DNA from: Arthrobacter sp. ov407
GTDB lineage: Bacteria; Actinomycetota; Actinomycetes; Actinomycetales; Micrococcaceae
DNA length: 64,000 bases
Assembly: GCF_900102895.1 (NCBI RefSeq)
Contig: NZ_FNGD01000004.1
Coordinates: forward strand, 1-64,000
Direction of reading: 5' to 3'
Shown: positions 48,979-54,831 of the stretch, piece after piece
How positions within the stretch are numbered: the first letter of the stretch is position 1
Layout of the letters: every line of letters starts with the position of its first letter
The notes under the pieces: generated by a model
The model's database searches: none
Told to the model about the DNA's origin: nothing
What the model saw: only the letters and a program-made list of their open reading frames with translations
Translations under genes and position numbers: made by a program

Positions 48979-49839
48979 ATGATCGTGGCCATGGGAGTAC
49001 CCGGAATTTCTCGACGCAGCCTGCTGGGGCTCGGAGCAGGCGCCGTGGCGGCGGCGTCGGTCGCGGGGTGCGCCGGCCCAGGCACGTCCAGCCAGGCAGC
49101 ACCACCGGCCCCACCAATCGCCATGCGCAGCGGCAGCTTCACCTCGCAGTTCCGGCCGGAGGAACCCACGGGCTGGTCACTGGCCGTGCCCGGATCCACC
49201 GACGGCGGCCCTTCCGGTCCGTTGCCTGTTGCACTGTTCCTGCATGGCACGGGCGCCGACCACCGCATGGTCTTCGACGAGCTCGACGCGGGCGGCGAGC
49301 TGGCACGGCATGTGGCCCGCGGAGGGACGCCTTTCGCGATCGCTGCCATCGACGGAGGCGAAACGTGGTGGCATCGCCGGGAATCCGGTACAGACACGCA
49401 GTCCATGCTGGTGCAGGAATTCCTTCCCCTGCTGGCCGGCCAGGGAGTCGACACCGGCAGGATCGCCGTGTTCGGCCTGTCGATGGGCGGCTTCGGCGCG
49501 CTGCTCCTGGCCTCCCAGCACCGCGTCCCCGGTCTCCGAGCCGTCGCCGCGATGAGCCCCGCAGTCTGGAGCCTGTACGACGCCGGCCGGTCCGACAACT
49601 TCGACAGCGCCGCGGACTTTGCGGCCAACGACATCTTTGCCCTGCGGCCGGAGCTGGAGTCACTGCCGAAGCGAATTGACTGCGGCACGGCGGACAACCT
49701 GCTCTTCAGTGTGAAGGACTACGTGAAGGACCTGCCAGGGGCACACGAGGGAGGCTTCCGGTCTGGCGGCCACGACAGCGGCTACTGGCGCTCCATCCTC
49801 CCGGACGTCGTCGCGTTCCTGGGCAAGAGCCTGGCTTGA
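48979..49839 (+). CDS. Tat-exported alpha/beta hydrolase (esterase-like)
   Basis: Predicted serine esterase of 286 residues. The N-terminus has a twin-arginine signal and lipobox (GISRRSLLGLGAGAVAAASV then AGCAG), so it is probably a Tat-exported lipoprotein. The oxyanion segment is VALFLHGTGADHRMVFDEL, the nucleophile elbow is GRIAVFGLSMGGFGALLLAS and a late His lies in FRSGGHDSGYWRSILPDV. The layout resembles feruloyl esterase/antigen 85-like S-esterases. ATG 48979 or 48991 could be the start. Its last 58 bases overlap the end of the convergent A-ACP-acyltransferase gene. Confidence 0.82.
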   Translation: MIVAMGVPGISRRSLLGLGAGAVAAASVAGCAGPGTSSQAAPPAPPIAMRSGSFTSQFRPEEPTGWSLAVPGSTDGGPSGPLPVALFLHGTGADHRMVFDELDAGGELARHVARGGTPFAIAAIDGGETWWHRRESGTDTQSMLVQEFLPLLAGQGVDTGRIAVFGLSMGGFGALLLASQHRVPGLRAVAAMSPAVWSLYDAGRSDNFDSAADFAANDIFALRPELESLPKRIDCGTADNLLFSVKDYVKDLPGAHEGGFRSGGHDSGYWRSILPDVVAFLGKSLA

Positions 49840-52364
49840 CGCTGGCCGCGAGCGCGCGACCCGGCAGCGCGAGCCCGCCGCCGGTTGACTGAACCCATCA
49901 CCCGCGCACAGAGCGTCCAGTAGGCTACTCCCGCGGCGAGCGAGACTGCCACGGCTAGCACTGGGCTTATCCCGGCCAGCGGTGGATAGACCAGCCAGTG
50001 GACCAGGTACGCGTAGAGCGAAGCGCTCGCCAGCACCACCGTGAGGCGGCGGAGGCCCCTGGGCACCGGAATGCTGGGCAGCCAGATGAGCAGCAGGATT
50101 CCGACGAGGAGCGTGCACTCCCGGCCCGGGTTCTCGAAGAATCCCGGAACGGTCAGTGCCGCAATGACCGAGACAATGCAACGCTGGGCTATGGTCCGGG
50201 TCCGTGCGATAGCCCAACCCAGGGCGAAGAGCCAGAGCGCAGGCGCCGTGTGCGGCACCCCGGGGTTTACCAACTCATAGCGGGTCAGGAGCCCCGCGCC
50301 GGTCAGCGCCAGGGGAAACAGTAAGGGGAAGCGCCGCTCGGCTCGGTCCGCCCACGGAATGGCCAGCAGCGCCGTCGCCCCCACAAGCAGGTAGACAAGA
50401 ATTTCGATGAACCAGAAGTGCCACTGGGTGGTCACCGCTTCCGGCCCGAGGATGGCGTTGAGCAGCAGGATGTTAGCGGGAGCGTAGTTGTCGGTGACCA
50501 GGTAGGCCACCGCGATGAATGCCATGCTCGGCACCACGATTCTGGCCACGCTGGCGAGCTGCCGCCGCAGCCGCGGGACCCGTGCTCCGGAGAGCTGGAA
50601 GCGGGCGAAGTTGTAGCCGGCCACAGCCATGAGCACGTGGGCCGCACCCTGCCAACTGAACAGACCAACGTGTGTGCCGACGATCAGGACGATCCCCACG
50701 GCCCGCAGCACGATGCTCGTCTCGACCGGCGCAAAGAACCGTCGACGCTTCCCGACCGGTACGGTGCGGGGCCGCGGCTCCAGGTCTCGGACCCGGGTGA
50801 CGTGCCAGTCCGGCGGGAGATGGTCCAGGGCTTGTTCCAGTCGGACTGACGCGGCCACATACGAGAGCGAGTCGCCGCCCAGGGAGACGAAGGTGTCGTC
50901 GTCGCCGATCTCGGCGCACTCCAGTGCGTCCTCGAAGATCTTCCGGACGCTGTCCGGCGCGCCGCTTTGCGCCGCGGGCTCAGGTTGCGGCCGGGACAGC
51001 GCCTGGACAGCTTTGTAGTCCAGTTTGCCCGTGGCTAGGCGCGGGAGATGCTCGACGGCGTGTACTTCGAGGGCCGCGCGCGGCAGTCCCATGCCCTGGG
51101 CGAGCACCTTGGCCAGCAGCTGCGGGTCGTGATCGCCCTCAACGGCGACAACGACGCCGTCGTCTGTTCCCGCGCTGGCCGCCTGCACCCCGAGGTCCGC
51201 CAGGAGCCGCTCCACCTGTCCCAGGTCAACGCGCAGTCCCACGATCTTGACGAAACGGCTGCGCCGTCCCACCACCTCGTAGACGCCTGCAGGGTGTTGG
51301 CGGGCGAGGTCGCCGGTACGGAGCTCGGTGACGGTCCGGCCTGCGGCAAGGTCCGCCTGGCTCTCGGCATAGCCGAGCATGACGTTGGGGCCGGTGTAGA
51401 CGAGTTCGCCGTGCTCCAGGCCCGGCACTGGGTCGATGCGGAACGATCCGCCGGGCACCGGGATGCCCACCGCACCTGGGACCTCGGCCGCCAGACCCGG
51501 CGGGAGGTACGCCATCCGGGCCGTCGCCTCGGTCTGGCCGTACATCACGAAAAATTCCCAGCCGTTTCGGTGGCCCAGTTCCGCGTATTTCCTCACCGAT
51601 TCCGGCGCCAGCCGCCCCCCGGCCTGGGTGATGTAGCGCAGGCTGGGCAGGTCCATTTCCGCGAACCCGACCCGTTCCAGCAGTTCAAAGGTGTACGGAA
51701 CGGCCGCCAGCGAAGTGGCCCCACGGCGTCGGAAGAGCTCCCAAAAGCATGGATCAACCACGGAAAGGTCGGTCAGGACCAGACCGGCACCGCGGAGCAG
51801 GTAGCTGTTGATCACCGACGAGCCGTAGCAGTAGGACATGGGCAGCGTCGTCGCTGCGCGGTCATCCGGGCCGATCTTCAGGTACTCGGAAATCGACTCG
51901 GCGTTGGACTGCAGGTTCGCGTGCGAGAGGCGCACGAGTTTGGGTGAGCCCGTAGATCCGGACGTGCTGAGCAGGAGCGCCAGGTCCGGATGCAGCTCGT
52001 GCCGGGTGCCGGGCCGGCGTTCCTCCAGCACGGTCCGCCCGTTCCCGGACCGCATCACGACGTCGGGGTCGTAGGCCGTAACCAGAGATTCCAAGGCGGC
52101 CGGTTTGTCCTCGGGCAAGAGGATCAGGGGGTGCCCGCCCACCAGCGCCGCGAGGTAGGCGACTATCGAGTCGAGGTCGTTCGTTGCGGCCAACGCGACG
52201 AGCCGCCGCTCGGTGCCGAGCCGGACGGCCAGGTCATCGACGCGCTCCGCCAGCTCCCGGTAGGTCAGTGCGAAGGTATCCGTGAGGATGGCAGGTCTGT
52301 CCCCGTAGCTCGCAAGATCGGCGGCAAAGGGCACCCGCATGAAATCAAGCTGCTGCGTGGTCAC
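49782..52364 (-). CDS. Fused adenylation - carrier - membrane acyltransferase protein
   Basis: An 860-residue three-part protein. Residues 1-460 form an adenylation domain: A3 LLLSTSGSTGSPKLVRLSH (131-149), A5 MYGQTEATA (274-282), A7 ELRTGDLAR (347-355), A8 GRRSRFVKIVGLRVDLGQVE (366-385) and A10 RLATGKLDYK with catalytic Lys 447. Residues about 470-520 form a carrier domain with phosphopantetheine Ser 499 (LGGDSLS). Residues about 548-825 form a ten-or-so-helix OafA-like acyltransferase with the R-x10-H signature (RAVGIVLIVGTHVGL, Arg 554, His 565) and WHFWFIEILVYL. It should activate an acid, load it on the carrier and transfer it to a membrane acceptor. The substrate and acceptor are unknown. 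The GTG start lies at the edge of an iron-box promoter. Confidence 0.85.
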   Translation of the reverse strand: MTTQQLDFMRVPFAADLASYGDRPAILTDTFALTYRELAERVDDLAVRLGTERRLVALAATNDLDSIVAYLAALVGGHPLILLPEDKPAALESLVTAYDPDVVMRSGNGRTVLEERRPGTRHELHPDLALLLSTSGSTGSPKLVRLSHANLQSNAESISEYLKIGPDDRAATTLPMSYCYGSSVINSYLLRGAGLVLTDLSVVDPCFWELFRRRGATSLAAVPYTFELLERVGFAEMDLPSLRYITQAGGRLAPESVRKYAELGHRNGWEFFVMYGQTEATARMAYLPPGLAAEVPGAVGIPVPGGSFRIDPVPGLEHGELVYTGPNVMLGYAESQADLAAGRTVTELRTGDLARQHPAGVYEVVGRRSRFVKIVGLRVDLGQVERLLADLGVQAASAGTDDGVVVAVEGDHDPQLLAKVLAQGMGLPRAALEVHAVEHLPRLATGKLDYKAVQALSRPQPEPAAQSGAPDSVRKIFEDALECAEIGDDDTFVSLGGDSLSYVAASVRLEQALDHLPPDWHVTRVRDLEPRPRTVPVGKRRRFFAPVETSIVLRAVGIVLIVGTHVGLFSWQGAAHVLMAVAGYNFARFQLSGARVPRLRRQLASVARIVVPSMAFIAVAYLVTDNYAPANILLLNAILGPEAVTTQWHFWFIEILVYLLVGATALLAIPWADRAERRFPLLFPLALTGAGLLTRYELVNPGVPHTAPALWLFALGWAIARTRTIAQRCIVSVIAALTVPGFFENPGRECTLLVGILLLIWLPSIPVPRGLRRLTVVLASASLYAYLVHWLVYPPLAGISPVLAVAVSLAAGVAYWTLCARVMGSVNRRRARAAGSRARGQRQARLLPRNATTSGRMERQ

Positions 52365-52371
52365 CCGGACA

Positions 52372-52401
52372 ATGTTATTAGATTAGGCTTACCTAAAACA
52401 A
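52372..52401 (-). promoter_or_regulatory. Leaderless promoter of the fused acyltransferase gene
   Basis: On the minus strand a -35-like TTGTTT (52401-52396), an 18-base spacer and a -10-like TAACAT (52377-52372) are followed seven bases later by the GTG start at 52364. This is the spacing of a leaderless transcript, and no ribosome site is present. The DtxR/IdeR-like box fills the spacer. Confidence 0.5.
52378..52396 (-). promoter_or_regulatory. DtxR/IdeR-like iron box 1
   Basis: TTAGATTAGGCTTACCTAA matches the DtxR/IdeR consensus TTAGGTTAGGCTAACCTAA at 17 of 19 positions. It lies between the -35 and -10 elements of the fused acyltransferase gene, a position where an iron-loaded repressor would block transcription. 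Confidence 0.8.
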
Positions 52402-52452: not shown

Positions 52453-52466
52453 TTAGGTTCCCCTAA
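52453..52466 (+). promoter_or_regulatory. DtxR/IdeR-like iron box 2 and efe promoter
   Basis: TTAGGTTCCCCTAA matches the 14-base core of the DtxR/IdeR consensus at 11 positions. It lies just after a possible promoter (-35 TTGCGT at 52419-52424, 16-base spacer, -10 TATTCT at 52441-52446) reading toward efeM. It is weaker than box 1. Confidence 0.6.
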
Positions 52467-52576
52467 GTAAGAGTTCCTCAGCGGCGTCGCTGGAGGGAAT
52501 CCGTACGCCCAACGGCCCCCACGCTCCACACCTCAACCCCTAGCCGTTCCGCCCCACCGACCCAAGGAAATCCCCC

Positions 52577-53509
52577 ATGCCCAGTATTCCCCTGCCCAAA
52601 ACCGCTCCACGGTTCCGGAAGACGCTTGCCCTGGTTGCGGCGGCCATCGCCGCTCCGCTGGCCCTGGCCGGCTGCATGGACAACTCAAAAACCTCGGGCG
52701 CAGCCGACGGGCCGATCCAGGTCACAGAGTCCGGCACGAACGCCGCCGTCGACGCCGGACTCCAGGGGCTCCTGAACACCGGGACCCGGCAGTACTCCGC
52801 TTATGTGAAGGATCAGACCGCTCAGCTCGTGGACGGCACGAAGGCGTTTGCGGAGGCCTACGCCGCAGGAGATGCGGCTAAGGCCCGCGGGCTCTATGCC
52901 GCCACCCGCATGCACTGGGAACGCATTGAACCGGTCGCCGAGTCCTTCGGGGACCTTGACCCCAAGCTCGATGCCCGCGAAGCCGACCTCGAACCGGGCC
53001 AGAAATGGACAGGCTGGCACCGGGCCGAAAAGGACCTGTTCCCGCCCACCGCTTACACCGCCCTCACGGTGGCGGAGCGCGCTGACCTGGCCAGGCAACT
53101 CGTTGCCGACACCGAGGACTTGGCCGGTCGGACCCGCACGGTGGAACTCTCCGCGGACAAGATCGGCAACGGCGCCAAGGAACTCCTGGACGAAGTAGCC
53201 ACCGGAAAAGTCACCGGAGAGGAAGAAATCTGGTCCCACACCGATCTCTGGGACTTCCAGGCCAACGTGGACGGGGCCCGGATCGCCTTCGAAAGCCTGA
53301 AACCTGCGCTCCAGCGCAAGGACCCGGCCCTGGCCGAGGCGTTTGACGCAAAGTTCGCCGCGTTGCAGGCCGGGCTCAAGCAGCACTCCACTGGCCAAGG
53401 GTTCGCCTACTACAACGATCTCAGCCAGGCCCAGGTCCAGCAGCTCGCTTCCCTGGTTGATGCCCTGGGCGAGCCGCTCGCCAAGCTCACGTCGGCAGTC
53501 GTCCTGTGA
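52577..53509 (+). CDS. efeO: EfeM/EfeO-type iron-uptake lipoprotein
   Basis: Exported M75 (imelysin-like) protein of 310 residues of the Efe ferrous/ferric iron system. The signal peptide LALVAAAIAAPLALAGCMDN ends in a lipobox. The metal-site motif is RMHWERIEPVAESFGDLDPK (HxxE), with GWHRAEKDLFPP and GEEEIWSHTDLWDFQANVDG. It lacks the N-terminal cupredoxin domain of E. coli EfeO, so it is the short EfeM form. AAGGAAA lies before ATG 52577. It overlaps efeB by four bases (GTGA). Confidence 0.92.
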   Translation: MPSIPLPKTAPRFRKTLALVAAAIAAPLALAGCMDNSKTSGAADGPIQVTESGTNAAVDAGLQGLLNTGTRQYSAYVKDQTAQLVDGTKAFAEAYAAGDAAKARGLYAATRMHWERIEPVAESFGDLDPKLDAREADLEPGQKWTGWHRAEKDLFPPTAYTALTVAERADLARQLVADTEDLAGRTRTVELSADKIGNGAKELLDEVATGKVTGEEEIWSHTDLWDFQANVDGARIAFESLKPALQRKDPALAEAFDAKFAALQAGLKQHSTGQGFAYYNDLSQAQVQQLASLVDALGEPLAKLTSAVVL

Positions 53510-54831
53510 GCGGTTGCCCCTTCGGCGGCAGCCCCGGCCAGACGCCCGACGGCGGGAACAGTAGTTTGTCCCGCCGCGGACTCTTGTCCCTCGCAGGTGC
53601 CGGCGGCGCTGGCGCCGTCGCCGGGCTGGCGGCGGGTTTCCTCAGCCACGATGCCGTCGAGGCAGCGGCCGCTCCACTGGCGGCGTCCGGCGACATCATC
53701 TCCTTCCACGGTGACCGCCAGGCCGGCATCGTCACGCCGGCCCAGGACCGCCTTCACATTGCAGCGTTCGACGTCGTCACGGAGGACCGTGCAGAACTCA
53801 TCCGGCTCCTGAAGGACTGGACCGCCGCCGCCGCGGCCATGACCGCGGGGCGCAGCACGGGCACCAGCGGCGCCGTCGACGGCCCCTACGACGCGCCCCC
53901 GGAGGACACGGGCGAGGCCCTGGACCTTGGGGCCGGAAAGCTCACCCTCACGTTCGGGTTCGGCGCAGGCCTGTTCGAGAAGGCCGGCAAGGCCCGCTTC
54001 GGCCTGGACGGACGCCGCCCGGACGCCCTCATCGACCTGCCGCACTTCCCCGGCGATGATCTCCAGTCCGGACGCACCGGCGGCGACATCGTGGTGCAGG
54101 CCTGCGCCGACGACCCCCAAGTGGCCGTCCATGCCATCCGGAACGTGGCCCGCATCGGATTCGGGCAGACGCGCGTCCGCTGGTCACAGCTGGGGTTCGG
54201 CCGGACCTCCTCCACGTCACGGTCCCAGGCCACCCCGCGGAACCTCTTCGGGTTCAAGGACGGCACCAGCAACCTCAAAGCCGAGGACACCGCCCTGCTG
54301 GACGAGCACGTGTGGGCCGGCCCGGGAACCCGCCCGGGCGAGGCCTGGATGGCCGGCGGCACCTACCTCGTGGCGCGCCGGATCCGGATGCATATCGAGA
54401 TCTGGGATCGGACCTCACTGCGCGAACAGGAAGGCCTGATCGGCCGCACCAAGGGCACAGGATCCCCGCTTTCCGGCGGCGGGGAATTCACCGCCCCCGA
54501 CTTCGACAACACGGGGCACGGCGGCGAACCACTGATTCCGCTGGACGCCCACGTGCGGCTTGCGCACTCGAGCCGGAACGACGGCGTCAAGATGCTCCGG
54601 CGCGGCTACAACTACACCGACGGTTCGGACGGCCTGGGCCACCTTGACGCCGGACTGTTCTTCATCGCCTTCGTAACAGACCCCCGGACGCACTATGTGC
54701 CCATGCAGCTGGCCATGGCGAAGGAGGACACGCTGGCCCTGGAATACCTCAAGCACACCGGCTCGGGCCTGTTCGCGGTTCCCCCGGGAACCAGGGCGGG
54801 AGGCTTCATCGGCGAAGGTCTCTTCGCATGA
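53506..54831 (+). CDS. efeB: Dyp-type heme peroxidase / deferrochelatase EfeB
   Basis: Heme peroxidase of 441 residues exported folded by the Tat system: SLSRRGLLSLAGAGGAGAVA. The Dyp motif GxxDG appears in RNLFGFKDGTSNLKAEDTAL. Further landmarks are YLVARRIRMHIEIWDRTSLR, LAHSSRNDGVKMLRRGYNYT and GLFFIAFVTDPRTHYVPMQL. EfeB proteins oxidise substrates with peroxide and have been proposed to release iron from heme or to oxidise ferrous iron for EfeU. GTG 53506 overlaps the efeO stop, and the end overlaps the next gene (ATGA). Confidence 0.94.
   Translation: MSGCPFGGSPGQTPDGGNSSLSRRGLLSLAGAGGAGAVAGLAAGFLSHDAVEAAAAPLAASGDIISFHGDRQAGIVTPAQDRLHIAAFDVVTEDRAELIRLLKDWTAAAAAMTAGRSTGTSGAVDGPYDAPPEDTGEALDLGAGKLTLTFGFGAGLFEKAGKARFGLDGRRPDALIDLPHFPGDDLQSGRTGGDIVVQACADDPQVAVHAIRNVARIGFGQTRVRWSQLGFGRTSSTSRSQATPRNLFGFKDGTSNLKAEDTALLDEHVWAGPGTRPGEAWMAGGTYLVARRIRMHIEIWDRTSLREQEGLIGRTKGTGSPLSGGGEFTAPDFDNTGHGGEPLIPLDAHVRLAHSSRNDGVKMLRRGYNYTDGSDGLGHLDAGLFFIAFVTDPRTHYVPMQLAMAKEDTLALEYLKHTGSGLFAVPPGTRAGGFIGEGLFA

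Follow-up and report, generated by a model that had tools for sequence, protein, structure and literature searches.

A single gene of Arthrobacter sp. ov407 encodes an adenylation domain, a carrier domain and a transmembrane acyltransferase in one chain, and on balance we favor the view that the protein is an iron-starvation enzyme, which would load itself with an acid other than an alpha-amino acid and transfer the acyl group across the membrane to give a product that aids iron capture. The gene lies in the window analyzed here, a 64,000-nucleotide stretch of DNA (contig NZ_FNGD01000004.1, positions 1-64,000). The observations are the domain anatomy of the protein, its conservation, putative regulator sites in two groups of bacteria and ferric-importer genes beside part of the family; the least certain part of the explanation is the identity and role of the product.

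The fusion open reading frame (ORF), which runs from 52364 to 49782, has a GTG start codon, no internal stops and lies on the minus strand (a correction to an earlier reading of the window made from its letters, hereafter the sequence-only reading). That reading had placed the three parts in one 860-residue frame, and the intact ORF and its Pfam domains bear this out. The Pfam scan gave an AMP-binding domain (residues 15-332, 6e-46), a PP-binding domain (residues 472-514, 3e-6) and Acyl_transf_3 (PF01757, residues 552-805, 7e-6), the last at 25.8 bits and hence below the curated cut-off of 31, which four of the six fusion proteins in a comparison set passed. The adenylation motifs of the nonribosomal peptide synthetase (NRPS) type that had been reported were all read directly from the protein: A3 (STSGSTGSPK), A5 (MYGQTEA), A7 (RTGDLAR), A8 (GRRSRFVKIVGLR) and A10 (LPRLATGKLDY, with the catalytic Lys447). 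So were the carrier motif LGGDS499 and the R554-x10-H565 signature. No SGNH domain was found in the Pfam scan and the chain stops after its last helix; the transferase is thus of the AT3-only type, and the earlier term "OafA-like" is a loose label because of this missing domain.

Because the Pfam match to AT3 was weak, the membrane part was modeled alone (AlphaFold2), which gave a ten-helix fold (pLDDT 93.5, pTM 0.91). With a second-look structural aligner the top match of this model was human HGSNAT (Z 14.0, root-mean-square deviation 4.7, 253 residues aligned), a score to be read with the caveat that helical models may reach Z 13-14 through their common arrangement. GWT1 came next at Z 9.7; the top 11 rows held HGSNAT and GWT1 alone, and the following chain scored Z 6.0. 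Given the caveat and the sub-threshold Pfam score, the AT3 assignment rests jointly on the fold, the coverage, the motifs and the drop in Z after these two proteins. Foldseek searches with the same model gave no match with E < 0.001 in the PDB and none that was significant in BFVD, where the best was an unnamed entry at E 0.0017. With the full-length model (mean pLDDT 87.2, pTM 0.54; domains good, mutual placement uncertain) adenylation domains appeared in the 50 best Foldseek rows. The AT3 family, HGSNAT and GWT1 are counted as members of the TmAT superfamily in the sections of PMC12423673 cited here, and the predicted fold places the membrane domain in this AT3/TmAT group.

The fusion is found well beyond the window. 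Among 99 related genomes 37 gave a match with an E value of 1e-100 or lower. The genus accounts for 32 of these (among 61 genomes; one match is broken) and the rest of the order for 5 (among 38). In a sample of the phylum 18 of 396 genomes matched with an E value of 1e-60 or lower, but in G283, G298 and G430 the match was confined to the adenylation part. Named hosts include Arthrobacter, Pseudarthrobacter, Zafaria, Micromonospora and Nocardioides. A plasmid search returned 103 matching records, with Rhizobium (54), Leisingera (17) and Rhodococcus (8) among the hosts, and in 81 records the match spanned at least 80% of the protein. The fusion therefore recurs in Actinomycetota and Alphaproteobacteria, and thus in Gram-positive and Gram-negative hosts, where its members are usually annotated as "AMP-binding protein". 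Some genomes have two fusion copies (L098 and L099 of Pseudarthrobacter sp. Fe7; G013; G009).

An alignment of 58 members contained 54 invariant residues, among them Lys447, Arg283, Arg554, His565 and Trp651. The carrier serine, Ser499, was retained in 57 of the 58. The exception, Rhizobium sp. Pop5 (L212, 2980-5589), has Leu in its place and two IS30 transposase genes immediately upstream. Pairwise identities of the adenylation and AT3 parts were correlated (r 0.94, 1653 pairs) and dN/dS was 0.06-0.26 in each of the three domains when measured against four close relatives. Since the identities rise together and dN/dS is low, both halves have evolved together under purifying selection. That the gene is a frameshift artefact, a chance fusion or a decaying gene has a negligible probability: broken copies do exist (G030, G009:C57 and G040:C2), but the many intact full-length homologues refute it, the dN/dS values also speak against it, and the ORF shows no frameshift.

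How the transferase would receive its acyl group can be approached from the residues of its donor site. In TmAT enzymes the acyl-coenzyme A (acyl-CoA) extends across the membrane in a site lined by conserved residues, according to the parts of PMC12423673 drawn on here. All 58 fusion members keep the helix-1 Arg and the His of R-x10-H, 56 keep the helix-9 Tyr and 47 the Ser of SxxxY, which is Ala in 10 of the 13 proteobacterial members. Three residues of the CoA site are missing from all 58: the helix-1 Asp (position 551 is never acidic and is hydrophobic instead), the helix-2 Phe (position 578 is Leu or Met) and the first Arg of RxxR (position 605 is Ser, Thr, Pro, Gly, Ala or Val). Among ordinary AT3 proteins (28 of 33 non-fusion rows, from seven genomes) the Asp was present in 18, the Phe in 25 (one doubtful) and the Arg in 23. 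We infer that the CoA site is no longer needed in the fusion family, because the phosphopantetheine arm would be supplied by the carrier of the same chain. The suggestion of the sequence-only reading that the activated acid is passed directly to the membrane domain is upheld to this extent, by inference from the three lost residues, and loading and transfer probably take place within one chain.

The alternative is that the halves act apart, with acyl-CoA as donor for the AT3 half and the adenylation-carrier part serving some other enzyme in trans. A copy in Rhizobium bangladeshense (L195, 7980-10591) lends this some color, as it is annotated as two adjacent coding sequences (AMP-binding and acyltransferase), which are followed by cyclase, YcaO-like and TfuA-like genes. 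Still, the fusion is conserved, its halves diverge in step, the CoA-site residues are lost and gene order in 41 loci revealed no conserved partner gene, all of which make separate action improbable. The neighbors in these loci mostly differ, so that no conserved partner enzyme can be named, and because the neighborhood otherwise varies in this way, the fusion gene is suggested to work alone.

The adenylation pocket gives some indication of the acid. In NRPS domains for alpha-amino acids the Asp at PheA position 235 is, we assume, the residue that binds the amino group. The fusion protein has at this position either Gly181 (two alignments) or Cys179 (a hand count) and no Asp; across the family Gly occupies 181 in 58 of 58 members and Cys or Ser occupies 179 in 58 of 58. 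Hence the substrate would not be an alpha-amino acid. Arg283, which stands at PheA position 331 in one alignment, is invariant (58 of 58) and suggests an acidic or hydroxy acid, although the stand-alone adenylation-domain relatives have it too, and the other alignment puts a gap near this residue. Given the conflicting alignments at 181/179 and near Arg283 we name no acid; that it is small and of the hydroxy or acidic type is at most a reasonable guess.

The evidence for iron control comes from upstream sites. Two matches to the 19-mer TTAGGTTAGSCTAACCTAA, which we take to be the DtxR/IdeR consensus, lie between the fusion gene and its divergent neighbor, and the better one is centered about 23 nucleotides ahead of the fusion start codon (Table 1). 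Of 37 homologues, 31 had a box of this type with at most five mismatches close to the start, in most cases centered about 20 nucleotides upstream, compared with 13 of 1000 random stretches matched in length. For named-species loci the count was 29 of 32, compared with 17 of 2000 control stretches; the two sets overlap in part, and the control stretches were taken from the same loci and so include real boxes. The Rhodococcus loci have a weak box, with 4-6 mismatches, ahead of the fusion. Where the importer genes come first, the box can precede them. Seven loci have fbp genes ahead of the fusion, and in five of these (L046, L058, L093, L119 and L123) a box with at most five mismatches lies before fbpA; in the remaining two, the box before fbpA of L198 has six mismatches and L125 has none. 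In L049 efeU (FTR1), efeO and efeB precede the fusion and a box lies ahead of efeU.

A different site was seen in the proteobacterial members. The pattern TGA-N9-TCA, in our understanding of the RirA type, occurred in the 150 nucleotides ahead of the gene, between -39 and -79, in 11 of 12 Rhizobiales loci versus 296 of 5000 random stretches (5.9%); these loci are not all independent, several Rhizobium being close relatives, and they include an unverified record labeled Roseateles (L201), the split copy L195, the shortened copy L214 and three start codons assigned by hand (L210, L211 and L214). Phyllobacterium L204 lacked the pattern. Only one of five Rhodobacterales loci had it (L199), farther upstream. 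A TTGACAAAATTA-like stretch common to four of these five could not be matched to the Iron-Rhodo-box, whose letters are missing from the literature passages used. A GACAAAATTA stretch within 60 nucleotides upstream, for which no known consensus was matched, is shared by Leisingera L199, L216 and L217 and Rhodobacter L200 and may be another iron-regulator site. The iron link of the sequence-only reading thus gains from conserved sites of two kinds: the family is very probably under iron control, and unrelated iron regulators seem to command the same gene in two phyla.

Table 1 Features of the fusion gene and its surroundings in the window
Feature	Position	Strand	Basis
Adenylation-carrier-AT3 fusion gene, complete, 860 residues	49782..52364	-	ORF, domains, full-length homologues
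Adenylation domain, residues 10-456; includes Arg283	50997..52337	-	Pfam, alignments
Carrier domain, residues 470-520; Ser499 codon 50868-50870	50805..50957	-	Pfam, alignment
AT3/TmAT transmembrane acyltransferase (predicted), residues 538-838; Arg554 codon 50703-50705, His565 codon 50670-50672	49851..50753	-	Pfam, model, alignment, structural match
Putative DtxR/IdeR-type iron box before fusion gene, 2 mismatches	52378..52396		Match to TTAGGTTAGSCTAACCTAA
Weaker iron-box-like site between fusion gene and efeO, 6 mismatches	52453..52471		Match to TTAGGTTAGSCTAACCTAA
efeO-like gene, divergent neighbor of fusion	52577..53509	+	EfeO model matched from position 98 onward only
efeB (deferrochelatase/peroxidase)	53506..54831	+	TIGR01412 above cut-off

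The genes beside the fusion bear on the role of its product. The efeO-like gene of the window lacks an N-terminal part, as judged from the start of the model match; this part is presumably the N-terminal cupredoxin. No efeU adjoins it, in contrast to L049 and L098. Of the 23 actinobacterial loci outside Micrococcaceae, 12 have fbpA and fbpB next to the fusion; five of these lie on plasmids of Rhodococcus and Mycolicibacterium and carry an iron ABC transporter annotation. The solute-binding, permease and ATPase parts were confirmed by Pfam in L119 and L128, and by their likeness to the annotated iron-transporter genes these two transporters would also carry iron. Within the genus, EfeO did not co-occur with the fusion. 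On the other side, a putative esterase gene (PF00756, 48742-49839) converges on the fusion gene of the window; by eye its N-terminus resembles a twin-arginine and lipobox signal. Among 41 compared loci such a converging esterase stood beside the fusion in L031 alone.

Together these elements can be put in order as follows. Iron starvation would lead to synthesis of the fusion enzyme, whose cytoplasmic adenylation domain would adenylate a small carboxylic acid other than an alpha-amino acid and load it on the phosphopantetheine arm of its own carrier at Ser499. The arm would then reach into the TmAT/AT3 pore at the site that receives acyl-CoA in other AT3 enzymes, and the acyl group would be passed to an acceptor located on the outer side of the membrane or outside it. 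Because importer genes adjoin the fusion, the product would probably help ferric iron capture for FbpABC and EfeUOB, which are usually taken as siderophore-independent importers, either as a simple chelator that carries the acyl group or as an envelope decoration that binds iron. That the product itself binds iron is a tentative proposal, somewhat short of an even chance. Rather doubtful, too, is the most specific version, in which one gene would suffice to make an extracytoplasmic iron ligand: its CoA-independent, self-charging enzyme would build a simple metallophore, or a surface ester that binds iron, for these importers.

Several observations weigh against an iron-capture enzyme of this kind. 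Apart from the window, 24 of the 111 loci searched had ferric-importer genes (efe or fbp) and most had none (some places in this set were fetched twice, and L033 is a permease match only); no such gene was near any of 17 proteobacterial copies, eight of which had flanks of only 3 kb. EfeO was not positively linked to the fusion, being present in 12 of 25 genomes with it and 9 of 13 without it (genomes G000-G037). No box with at most five mismatches was found in six of the 37 homologues (L046, L047, L058, L060, L065 and L067), of which L046 and L058 have it before fbpA instead, nor in three of the 32 named-species loci (L092, L093 and L100), of which L093 has one before fbpA; L125, L128, L060, L120 and L121 had none even at six mismatches. 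The full-length model, in which domain placement is uncertain (pTM 0.54), does not show the arm reaching the pore. The second Arg of RxxR is still present in 40 of 58 members, and the helix-1 Asp is also absent from 10 of the 28 ordinary AT3 proteins and is reported as dispensable in OacB in the part of PMC12423673 cited. Finally, 9 of 32 fusion genomes of the genus gave only an AcpS-sized match for a phosphopantetheinyl transferase (PPTase). The genome of the window has two PPTase matches, and the fusion had no positive link to a second, Sfp-sized PPTase in G000-G060.

In view of the proteobacterial copies that lack a neighboring importer, envelope remodeling becomes a more serious competitor: iron-starved cells would acylate a lipid, glycan or wall component, and iron binding would not be the point. 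The presence of the family in both Gram-positive and Gram-negative bacteria fits such a role, as do the surface-glycan modifications that dominate the list in the AT3 review, in the sections cited (PMC9558356), and the stand-alone relatives of the adenylation domain, which adjoin LuxE, LuxC and SDR genes (L129 and L130) or sit in a capsule-like locus (L209). Against it, ferric-importer genes are repeatedly adjacent to the fusion or in one unit with it in actinobacteria, which suggests a role in uptake, and we consider remodeling possible but on the unlikely side. A third explanation makes the fusion a tailoring enzyme for a siderophore synthesized from elsewhere in the genome. Iron control of the gene would suit this, and acylated siderophores such as rhizobactin 1021 exist, as the cited portion of PMC2848241 records. 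However, neither an NRPS Condensation domain nor an IucA/IucC synthetase was found in the genome of the window (other siderophore routes were not searched), and IucA/IucC was equally common with the fusion (12 of 25 genomes) and without it (6 of 13), hence independent of it; the Condensation search covered the window's own genome only and the IucA/IucC counts G000-G037. We regard tailoring as quite improbable. The statement of the sequence-only reading that the window has no siderophore synthase thus extends, for these two families only, to the whole genome.

An iron-starvation enzyme that charges itself remains our preferred explanation, and it seems to represent an undescribed enzyme family. 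No published description of an adenylation-carrier-AT3 enzyme was found in the open-license literature, where several of the queries were narrow, and no close homologue with a characterized function was found. Each part is already known; relative to the literature found, the novelty lies in how they are combined, in putative iron control across two phyla and in a donor that has probably changed. If correct, a membrane acyltransferase that loads its own carrier would extend the TmAT mechanism, for which the donors described so far in PMC12423673 are acyl-CoAs. It would also provide a single-gene iron-starvation chemistry for bacteria lacking recognizable siderophore synthetases, and a function for a gene mostly labeled "AMP-binding protein" in plasmid records of Rhizobium, Rhodococcus, Mycolicibacterium and Arthrobacter, of which Sinorhizobium meliloti probably offers a member amenable to laboratory work.

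The closest parallel in working principle is the Dlt system, which consists of DltA, DltC, DltB and DltD, with DltB of the MBOAT type. The order of events would be the same (adenylation, carrier loading, then transfer at the membrane), and the analogy drawn in the sequence-only reading is sound as a principle. It fails as a statement of membership, since the fusion is a single polypeptide with an AT3 rather than an MBOAT transferase, a predicted non-alpha-amino acid substrate and putative iron control. In mycobactin synthesis MbtM-MbtL-MbtK likewise activate an acid, load it on a carrier and transfer the acyl group under iron regulation, but as separate soluble proteins, with a GNAT-type transferase that acts on a siderophore side chain; the fusion, by contrast, is one membrane protein in a genome where no Condensation or IucA/IucC synthetase was found. 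With the TmAT/AT3 enzymes OafB, OacB, HGSNAT and GWT1 it shares the predicted ten-helix fold, R-x10-H and the helix-9 Tyr, and it differs in the activating domain and carrier in front and in the three absent CoA-site residues. From the AT3-SGNH proteins of the OafA/OafB type it differs in having no C-terminal SGNH domain. The AT3 fusion partners named in the portions of the literature cited are SGNH and racemase (PMC9558356) and NRF (PMC12423673).

The adenylation domain is 50% and 46% identical to the stand-alone AMP-ligases of L129 and L130, respectively, and YGQTEAT-A/S-R is common to L129, L130 and L131; these ligases differ in that the carrier is separate and no AT3 domain is fused, and no iron box was found near the ligase gene in any of the three loci. 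Genes for LuxE, LuxC and SDR proteins adjoin the L129 and L130 ligases. In L130 (1-5956) the relative lies near a flagellin gene, with PP-binding, SDR, LuxE and LuxC genes beside it, and this is probably a flagellin glycosylation locus; a gene set of the same LuxE/LuxC type occurs in Aeromonas flagellar islands, as part of PMC7874193 describes. The unfused relative of L209 lies in its capsule-like locus with acyl carrier protein and ketoacyl synthase genes. Lastly, Sinorhizobium meliloti SMc00592 is a likely orthologue of the fusion. Counting back from ndk in strain Ak57, the fusion is the third gene; strain 1021 has ndk as SMc00595, and the assignment assumes that it shares this gene order. 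The RirA-type pattern lies upstream of the fusion in Ak57, and in a table of PMC2848241, the one paper found to name it, where SMc00592 is labeled "hypothetical, transmembrane protein", the gene rises with genes of heme and siderophore uptake (hmuS, hmuT, hmuV, fhuP, shmR and exbBD) under swarming conditions.

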